A stretch of 64,000 nt of DNA from Malassezia japonica (taxonomy: Eukaryota; Basidiomycota; Malasseziomycetes; Malasseziales; Malasseziaceae): NCBI RefSeq assembly GCF_029542785.1, contig NC_083378.1:434001-498000 (forward strand), read 5' to 3'. The position numbers and the translations under genes were made by a program. Shown here one piece after another: positions 22,728 through 25,230 of the stretch. Under the pieces are notes generated by a model. The model did no database searches and had not been told where the DNA came from. It worked only from the letters and a program-made list of their open reading frames with translations. Position 1 is the stretch's first letter. The number at the start of each line of letters is the position of its first letter.

Positions 22728-25230
22728 ATGGTGTATCATCCCCCGGTCGCTCGATACAATACGTCCGTAAAGGACAGCTTTGCGTATGATACAGCCGTGC
22801 GCCGTTGGCCTGCCATCCTAACGCAGGTCGTCGATGCGATGTATCGCGAATGCCACCGCCGCTCGCAGAACAATGTGAGCGAAGAGGTTGACGAAGGCAA
22901 GGCGATCATTGAGAAGATCTCGGAGCTCAAGTACGAGCTGACGCACGACCGAGCGCTGAGCACGCTAGAAGTGACAAAGGAGAATGCAGCGCAACTCTCG
23001 AGTGGATTCCGCGCGCCGACTACCGAAGCATACGACCAGGTGATTCGCGACGAGCAGCCCAAGTGGTTCCAGTCGGAATGGTGCGTATCGAATCTCATCC
23101 AGGCTCTTTGCCGAGTGTTATCTGTACCGGCGCCTGCGCCTCCTCTTTGAAAGGTCCAAGCATTGGAAGAGGTACGCATGCGTCCTAATGCAGCTACGAC
23201 CCGTTTGCAGAGAACAAGGTTGACACGTTTCGTGCTTCGGGCGCGGGCATCCACGCGTGCGCGGTGCTCATCGAGGAGCTCATGGCCAAGAGCCCGACAC
23301 ACTCGGCGCACGACCCTGCCGTCCAGGTCCTCTTTGACGAACTGATGGCATCGTCGCTCTGGGGCAATGCCACTGACCTGAGCCTGCTCACGAATCTGAG
23401 CTACGCCGATATCCAGAAACTACAGGCGGCCAACGCTGAGCAGCGCAAGGAGAAGGAGCAATATGTCCTTGTGAACCAGCTTGATGAGGCGTACGACGCA
23501 GTCCGTGCAATGGACAATGGCCGCATCGACATTGTCCTCGACAATGCAGGCTTCGAGCTGGTTACCGATATGCTGCTTGCCGACTGGCTCCTGACGCTGC
23601 GCGGAACGATCCCGCGTGCATCCGAAGAACGTGCAAAGGATGTACAGGCACGCCTTGCTTCGGTTCGCGCCCGCGTATCGGAGGCGACCAAGGCAGCGTC
23701 GCGCACATCGGAGCCGCGCCTGCTTGCCGTATCGAAGCTGCAGCCGCCCTCGGATATCATGGCTGCTTTTGACGCTGGGCAGCGCCACTTTGGTGAGAAC
23801 TACGCCCAGGAGCTCGTGGACAAAGCCCGTGTGCTTCCGCAGAGTATCAAGTGGCACCTGGTCGGTGGCCTACAGAGCAACAAAGCCAAGATCCTAGGAG
23901 GTACGTCTATTGACTTACGCAGCGGTTCCCAATCTCTACGCCGTGGAGTCGGTGGACTCGGAGAAGCTTGCGACGAACCTTGAAAAGGCACTCGCTCGCC
24001 CGGAGAACGAGCTGCGCCGCACCTATCCCCTGCACGTCTACCTGCAAGTTAACACGAGTGGCGAAGAAGGCAAGAGTGGCGTGCCTGCACTGACCTCGCC
24101 ATGGGACGGCTCGGGTGACGTGCCGCCGCTTGTGGCGCTTGCGCGCCATGTTCTGCTCAGCTGTCCTCATCTGCGCCTCACTGGTCTGATGACTATCGGC
24201 GCGCTGTCCAACAGCACGGCTTCCGCGACCGACAAGCAAAACCCTGACTTTGAGGCGCTTGTCGCTTCGCGCACGCACCTGCTTGACTCGCTGCGCTCGG
24301 ACCAATCGCTGCACGAACGCCTCGAGAAGGCCGAGTGGTGGACGCCGTCCGGCCCTGCGTCGGGCGTGTATGCCTCGCTCTTTTTTGAGGCACCCGATGC
24401 GCTCGAGCTGAGCATGGGCATGTCGGCGGACCTAGAGTCGGCCGTGGCTCATGGCAGCGCACACGTCCGTATTGGCAACGACTGTTTCGGTCCTCGGACC
24501 AACACGCACGATGCGGCCCAAGTGCGCGAAGCCGAGATCAAGCGCTTTGCCGATGTCCCCCTCGTGAAGCAGGTCGTCTTTCACACAAAGAACATGCCGT
24601 GGTTTGTGAGCGACACGTGCGTGCCGGACGTCTGGTACACCCTCGAGAAGCTCCAGGACCCTGCCTTTTTTGCAGAGGCGAAGCTGCCCTCGACGAAGCC
24701 CATCGAGGCGATGGCCGCGCGTTGGGCCGCACACTTTGCTGACGGCTCGTTCCATCTGCAGATGCCGCACGATGCGCCGCTGGGCTCCGACGCGGGCGAC
24801 CTCTCCAACTTTTGGACTGCGCCGGCGAGCTTTGGTGCTCTGGTACGTCGTCCTACTCACCCAGCCGCAAGACGCACCTGCACTCCTCGCCGAACTGCAA
24901 AAGTCGGGACTGGTGATCTTTAAAGGTATGTGCTATGGCTGACGACGCAGGCGACTTGGTGCGTGCCGCCTCCTCTGATGTAGAACTATCGCAAACTGAC
25001 GCAGGATGCCGAATGGCCGGCCGACACGCCATTTACTACCGCGCTTGGACCTCTTGCCGGCGAGATCCCGCTCCTCGCACTCCGCACCTGCAAGGCGGAG
25101 GTCTGTGTCGGCCTTGCGCCTGGCCAAGCCGCGGCGCTCGACCAGCGCGACCCAAAGTGGAGGGGTAACGGCCACTGGGCCGGTAAGTGGAATTGCTGAC
25201 CCAGTCATGCAATATGCTGCGCGCTCGTAA
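22728..25230 (+). CDS. ARMT1/DUF89 phosphatase with inserted YggS/PLPBP domain
   Basis: Eight exons; introns 23081-23102, 23172-23193, 23901-23922, 24843-24864, 24926-24950, 24959-24983 and 25183-25204. The spliced protein is 780 aa, against about 440-470 for the family. Residues 1-276 are the first half of an ARMT1 (YMR027W-like) metal-dependent phosphatase: [22 protein letters not shown] and [20 protein letters not shown]. Residues ~277-575 are a complete YggS/PLPBP fold: LLAVSKLQP (the PLP lysine), [57 protein letters not shown] and [11 protein letters not shown]. The phosphatase then resumes with [27 protein letters not shown] and [12 protein letters not shown]1-type enzymes dephosphorylate damaged sugar phosphates using Mn2+ or Ni2+; YggS proteins buffer free PLP. 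The frame is continuous across both junctions with no splice signals. The start could be ATG 22677. Confidence 0.85.
24951..24958 (+). other. 8-nt microexon in the ARMT1-YggS gene
   Basis: The eight bases GCGACTTG lie between two 25-nt introns. They complete Gly and add Asp-Leu of GDLNYRKLT, a motif conserved in all DUF89 phosphatases. Skipping either intron breaks the frame. Confidence 0.8.

Follow-up and report, generated by a model that had tools for sequence, protein, structure and literature searches.

A YggS/PLPBP domain nested within an ARMT1/DUF89 phosphatase of Malassezia japonica and its relatives

Introduction

Does one gene of Malassezia japonica encode a pyridoxal 5'-phosphate (PLP) homeostasis domain of the YggS/PLPBP family inside an ARMT1/DUF89 phosphatase and, if so, what keeps the two together? 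The locus lies on contig NC_083378.1 of RefSeq assembly GCF_029542785.1 (8.43 Mb across nine contigs), in a stretch of 64,000 nucleotides (positions 434,001 to 498,000, forward strand) that is called the window here, and whose coordinates are used throughout. The original prediction, made from the letters of this stretch, proposed an in-frame YggS between two Rossmann-like motifs of the DUF89 protein. A complete YggS domain, placed in frame between the two acidic motifs of the ARMT1/DUF89 active site, is borne out by homologues, by trees, by searches of the organism's own genome and by structure prediction.

Results

The fused gene (Table 1) comprises eight exons separated by seven introns of 22-25 nt, GT..AG throughout, and once spliced it gives a protein of 780 residues, the length that had been expected. 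Pfam recognises PF01937 (ARMT1-like) in two stretches (1.1e-72, 245.3 bits against a cut-off of 25) and PF01168 (Ala_racemase_N) at residues 296-492 (4.3e-8, 33.6 bits against a cut-off of 24.1). The host residues Asp257 and Asn258 precede the insert and Asp607 follows it, and the window protein keeps all of D257, N258, D607, K703 and K743, whose roles we take to be those known in ARMT1/DUF89, the DN motif having been aligned here to PDB sequences. The YggS hallmarks are present as claimed, including the PLP lysine in LAVSK, which is residue 322, is kept in 26/26 fusions and corresponds to Lys36 of E. coli YggS, where it sits in the motif LLAVSK (PMC9601805).

Set against insert-free relatives, the host sequence continues to ADWLL (residue 274) and picks up again at 589, which makes the insert 314 residues long (275-588, 23594-24557) and not about 295 as first estimated; the insertion loop is otherwise nearly closed, as in ADWLLT-TPHV of Ustilago. 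The match of the Tilletiaria YggS to the locus covers residues 7-327 of its 328, and the linkers GAFPRPTDERA and FGQRAQTRDEAMRAMEHELKQ can each be aligned by eye to a native end of that protein; given this span and these alignments, a near-complete YggS coding sequence, start and stop excluded, sits in the loop. The intron at 23901-23922 is, as stated in the prediction, the sole one in the insert. Near its position the guest of P0005 has extra residues resembling an in-frame intron read-through, and P0016 and P0017 have none, so a gain or loss of this intron within Malassezia is possible judging by these proteins.

A search with the full window protein listed at least 120 rows, P0001-P0025 fused and P0026-P0120 insert-free. 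The co-linear DUF89 and Ala_racemase_N hits that had been proposed as a check were found in fungal proteins: among the 120 matches listed, at least 25 other clusters, 51-69% identical, have the same domain order (P0001 at 66% identity and 100% coverage), and these clusters plus the window protein are the 26 fusions counted in this work, with P0121, which has no N half, excluded from every count. Both Pfam domains are precomputed for 24 of the 25, while P0016 lists one although both are visible in it. Seven fused rows carry species or strain names (M. vespertilionis, M. brasiliensis, Malassezia sp. CBS 17886, M. psittaci, M. cuniculi, M. equina and M. nana), five of them under the UniRef name "pyridoxal phosphate homeostasis protein". 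The motifs GENY[AV]QEL, LSMGMS and VRIG occur in each of the 25 database rows and WHxxGGLQSNK in 24, and TIGR00044 scores 163.8 bits in P0001, 174.5 in P0018 and 170.9 in P0024 (cut-off 106.25). All 25 database proteins cross the N junction without a break, and since they share this continuity as well as the domain order, chance is excluded; P0016 and P0017 pass through both junctions, and these two look like unspliced open reading frames because they extend beyond FVS into an apparent intron. The other 95 rows (e.g., Ustilago, Violaceomyces, Tilletiaria, Amylostereum) have ARMT1 alone, with no real YggS signature among them, the AVSK strings of P0066 and P0114 being chance matches.

Some database entries deserve a comment of their own. 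In the annotation of P0006 (Malassezia sp. CBS 17886), a single protein of 1309 residues contains the ARMT1-YggS fusion and INO1 domains; this is probably a gene-model merge, but it suggests that the fusion-INO1 gene order is common to the window and CBS 17886. The insert-free DUF89-B proteins P0026, P0028, P0034 and P0037 of Ustilaginomycotina have a low-complexity, Ser/Arg-rich insertion of their own (more than 100 residues) in a different loop, after FVSD, and none of the Malassezia proteins seen has it. Many DUF89 phosphatases, including P0034, P0045, P0250 and P0257, are misleadingly labelled 'Hairy/enhancer-of-split with YRPW motif protein 2' in databases.

The 26 guest domains cluster as a single clade (support 100/98) in a tree built from 55 YggS rows, and its sister is a clade of 13 stand-alone YggS rows (99/98), the five named ones from Tilletiaria, Microstroma, Jaminaea, Ceraceosorus and Exobasidium, which we take to be Exobasidiomycetes. 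Among 57 ARMT1 rows placed in a second tree, the hosts of all 26 fusions likewise form one clade (100/100), which lies inside a 35-row clade of the Ustilaginomycotina B paralogue (99/99). The fusion has a single origin by this computation. We rejected horizontal transfer of YggS, as the guest groups with Exobasidiomycete YggS, and it is also unnecessary. As for the alignments, the L-INS-i one (26 fusions, P0121 and 13 insert-free ARMT1, with P0006 trimmed at residue 790) misplaced the second half of the outgroups at the insert, and in four MAFFT modes none of 25 ARMT1-only rows was aligned at FVSD; hence the alignment used for structure prediction had no such rows and consisted of 60, namely 24 fusions and 36 YggS, with P0006 left out.

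The fold prediction that had been suggested was obtained for the relative P0001, and in it both domains are complete: the YggS triosephosphate isomerase (TIM) barrel, and the DUF89 fold despite the insert, with both insert ends ordered. In such folds the insertion loop is on the side that faces away from the active site, and a TIM barrel has its two ends near each other; for these two reasons both domains can still fold.

Regarding other genes of the same genome, no second YggS was found by protein queries, the guest and the Tilletiaria YggS both matching the two exons of this locus and nothing else. Among 120 matches listed in the YggS search, the recognisable Malassezia rows (P0014, P0023, P0024, P0025 and P0121) all carry ARMT1 as well, and no Malassezia row with separate YggS and ARMT1 genes is present. 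Scanning with PF01937 and querying with ARMT1 revealed one more DUF89 on another contig (C3), as an insert-free open frame of 501 residues; it is the slow paralogue (A), retained in many Basidiomycota, present in M. psittaci, M. equina, CBS 17886 and M. pachydermatis, and with its five motifs intact in the best 13 rows. The genome also has matches to the PLP synthase SNZ (listed with one internal TAA) and to pyridoxine 5'-phosphate (PNP) oxidase, so vitamin B6 metabolism seems otherwise present.

The host has not been preserved equally in all the fusions. In six of the 26 (P0018 and P0020-P0024, M. equina and M. nana included), the DN motif reads VLGN, VLGH or VLGG, so that VLG replaces VLD in every one of them, and the LWGNATD motif is broken in all five that cover it; the six are one clade in the guest tree and in the host tree (100/100). 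The catalytic Asp-Asn is intact in the other 20 fusions, in all 95 insert-free rows and in 120/120 rows of the A paralogue (a strict pattern count gave 81 of the 95 and 115 of the 120, but every miss retains Asp-Asn), and the YggS lysine persists despite the decay of the host. The Asp loss extends to P0018 and P0020-P0022, beyond the M. equina and M. nana models, and in the C half of P0024, a single database gene model, the Lys of KGD is Gln and RTCK is RTCA. Decay was judged by LWGN and DN only, FVSD and later columns being missing or apparently intronic in several rows. By these motifs, the fusions of the equina/nana clade have probably lost the phosphatase activity of the DUF89 protein from which they derive; as this clade lost the catalytic Asp and kept YggS, the activity would be dispensable for the persistence of the fused protein.

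The neighbours of the gene are an SBDS gene transcribed away from it and INO1 (Table 1); further off, a sulfate permease with a STAS and a C-terminal cyclic-nucleotide-binding domain lies at 18621-21713 (+).

Table 1. Features of the fused gene and its neighbours, in window coordinates.
Feature	Position	Strand	Evidence
Fused ARMT1(DUF89)-YggS-ARMT1 gene	22728..25230	+	Spliced translation of 780 aa; full-length homologues, e.g., P0001
Exons of the fused gene	22728-23080, 23103-23171, 23194-23900, 23923-24842, 24865-24925, 24951-24958, 24984-25182, 25205-25230 (incl. stop)	+	
Host ARMT1/DUF89, N-terminal half, residues 1-274; introns 23081-23102 and 23172-23193	22728..23593	+	PF01937, residues 22-275
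Host active-site Asp257-Asn258 (VLDNAGFEL)	23540..23545	+	DN motif aligned between Amylostereum ARMT1 and structures of fission-yeast DUF89
Inserted YggS/PLPBP domain with short linkers, residues 275-588 (314 aa)	23594..24557	+	Tilletiaria YggS match; alignment of relatives; PF01168
PLP Schiff-base lysine, residue 322 (LAVSK)	23735..23737	+	Conserved in the fusions; equals E. coli YggS Lys36
Sole intron within the insert, 22 nt	23901..23922	+	Spliced gene model
Host ARMT1/DUF89, C-terminal half, residues 589-780	24558..25230	+	PF01937 over the whole protein in two stretches; genome PF01937 matches C9:458561-458749 and C9:458978-459133
Host C-half motifs FVSD (Asp607), FKGD (Lys703), RTCK (Lys743)	24612; 24922; 25092	+	
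Micro-exon of 8 nt, with a 25-nt intron on either side, that encodes most of the conserved GDL	24951..24958	+	Gene model; GDL in homologues P0001 and P0004
SBDS gene (ribosome maturation), main exon	21741..22448	-	PF01172, PF09377, PF20268
INO1, myo-inositol-1-phosphate synthase	25498..27162	+	PF07994, PF01658

Discussion

We consider it likely that YggS was built in frame into DUF89-B in the ancestor of Malassezia and was kept as the PLP carrier, with the host expendable. A near-whole YggS/PLPBP coding sequence (beginning at about residue 7 and reaching the last residues, with neither start Met nor stop) would have entered the alpha-to-beta loop behind the DN-motif helix of the faster-evolving B paralogue. 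The stand-alone YggS gene would have been lost, or may itself have been the moved piece, and the fused protein would therefore have become the sole PLP carrier of the cell and been retained for that role. Made as a single polypeptide, it would bind PLP via Lys322, buffer it and pass it to enzymes, as YggS does elsewhere. DUF89 phosphatases work by a covalent aspartyl-phosphate mechanism, for which PDB titles are the support here; in most species, that of the window included, the host has probably remained active as a metal-dependent sugar-phosphate phosphatase, but the B6 role does not require it, and the conserved A paralogue may render it expendable. In the equina/nana clade, the host would have turned into a catalytically dead shell, which YggS could not shed because its start codon, and probably a part of its fold, come from the host. 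Since that one clade does without the catalytic Asp, we picture an insertion that was tolerated and then locked in once no stand-alone YggS was left, with the expendable partner decaying later. YggS can pass PLP on to an aminotransferase in vitro (PMC13353753), PLP falls while PNP and the turnover of PLP rise when PLPHP is lost (PMC10463200), and a yeast DUF89 member of the metal-dependent phosphatase family has its top activity on fructose-1-phosphate (PMC8669784).

Several points weigh against this account, which is built on sequences and a predicted structure. The structure is that of P0001, 66% identical to the spliced window protein, and its stretch 601-610, which holds FVSD, is less sure (predicted local distance difference test score 70). 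The frame of the relatives was judged at the protein level on database gene models; those of M. equina and M. nana are without residues that are present in P0018 and P0020, which makes their C halves uncertain. The host-to-guest distance ratio is 1.83-3.34 in the decayed clade (median 2.73, 10 pairs; 5 of 15 pairs, all with P0023, were dropped for having fewer than 60 shared host columns) and 0.57-1.99 in the other fusions (median 1.27, 190 pairs), so the ranges overlap slightly (1.83 vs 1.99), and the pairs are non-independent. The own-genome search scores the best candidates only, so a very divergent second YggS could escape it, and a PF01168 profile search of the genome gave zero matches, a result that we gave no weight because it missed the window copy itself. 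There is no Ustilaginomycete YggS among the rows listed, so the placement of the guest holds for the rows listed, and M. pachydermatis was seen by name for the A paralogue alone. Finally, internal initiation could still occur, given the Met in 6/26 linkers and the Met just upstream of the insert in the window protein (TDMLLADW).

It seems improbable, though worth stating, that the fusion is a bifunctional B6 unit, in which DUF89-B would act as a PNP/PLP phosphatase that clears excess or wrong B6 phosphates (PNP or free PLP), and the YggS carrier would shield and deliver PLP; in the equina/nana clade, the pseudoenzyme shell may then regulate or scaffold the carrier. A fusion can be a functional hint, as is listed for DUF89 and coenzyme A (CoA) metabolism in PMC4921024. 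E. coli YggS also binds PNP, with an affinity below that for PLP (PMC9601805), and human cells deficient in PLPHP accumulate PNP and hydrolyse more PLP, which inactivation of pyridoxal phosphatase partly counters (PMC10463200). The intact Asp-Asn of 20 fusions fits as well, and in these rows such a partnership is possible. However, the pair is not obligate, because the six fusions of one clade lost the catalytic Asp and retained the YggS motifs, and insert-free DUF89-B occurs in many Basidiomycota. The proposal that the gene joins metabolite repair to PLP homeostasis is supported in part: the two domains are indeed fused, but the genome has an insert-free second DUF89 and one clade has no catalytic Asp.

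Very unlikely is separate production of YggS and ARMT1 from a nested gene, whether by splicing, by an internal start or by post-translational cleavage, even if stand-alone proteins are the rule elsewhere. The claim that no splice sites lie near the junctions holds in part: all seven introns begin with GTRNG and no such donor is present in 23500-23720 around the N junction, but there are six plain GT in 23540-23680, the single match to the local acceptor pattern in 24440-24640 is at 24448, within the YggS part, and a plain CAG without that pattern is at 24570. A Met between ADW and the PLP lysine occurs in 6/26 fusions only, so the YggS part has no conserved start codon. The protein is unbroken over the N junction in 26/26 rows, through both junctions in P0016 and P0017, and the insert ends are predicted to be ordered. 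As for an assembly or annotation artefact, gene finders do merge genes at this locus, as in P0006, but that reading is already refuted by conservation, with the identical insertion in 25 other clusters from several sources and with similar guest and host trees.

Both families are known. The YggS/PLPBP/PLPHP family (COG0325; yeast YBL036C, E. coli YggS) shows PF01168 alone in the named non-Malassezia rows listed, which agrees with the view that YggS and ARMT1 are normally separate proteins, whereas the Malassezia domain is embedded in another enzyme without a start or stop of its own. The fusion differs from ARMT1/DUF89 phosphatases (yeast YMR027W, fission yeast SPAC806.04c and SPCC1393.13, human ARMT1) by the 314-residue insert between DN and FVSD (residues 258 and 607, which would be about 36 apart if it were removed), and one Malassezia clade has lost the catalytic Asp. 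A fusion of DUF89 to a CoA-pathway gene is listed in PMC4921024, and it shares with the Malassezia gene a DUF89 phosphatase in one chain with a vitamin-cofactor protein. In PANK4 the domains lie end to end; in Malassezia, by contrast, the partner is embedded in the DUF89 fold and has to do with vitamin B6. No description of the nested architecture was found in open-licence literature on DUF89/ARMT1 or YggS, in Malassezia or paired; one match, PMC4894687, was false (DUF895), and the main text of PMC6004016, on M. sympodialis vesicles, gave no match. As far as these searches show, neither the nested architecture, as had been supposed, nor the fate of the host as a pseudoenzyme has been described, but the two Pfam domains are already annotated on these proteins in databases.

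Conclusions

If the B6 unit were true, DUF89-B would gain a B6 phosphate as its substrate, and YggS would have a physical partner. On the reading that we favour, a whole TIM barrel that separates the catalytic motifs of a second enzyme offers a natural test of tolerance to domain insertion, and the decay of the host with persistence of the guest in one clade looks like a ratchet. The fusion gives a concrete handle on the cellular roles of PLPHP and fungal DUF89-B, and Malassezia seems to run its PLP homeostasis within a phosphatase.
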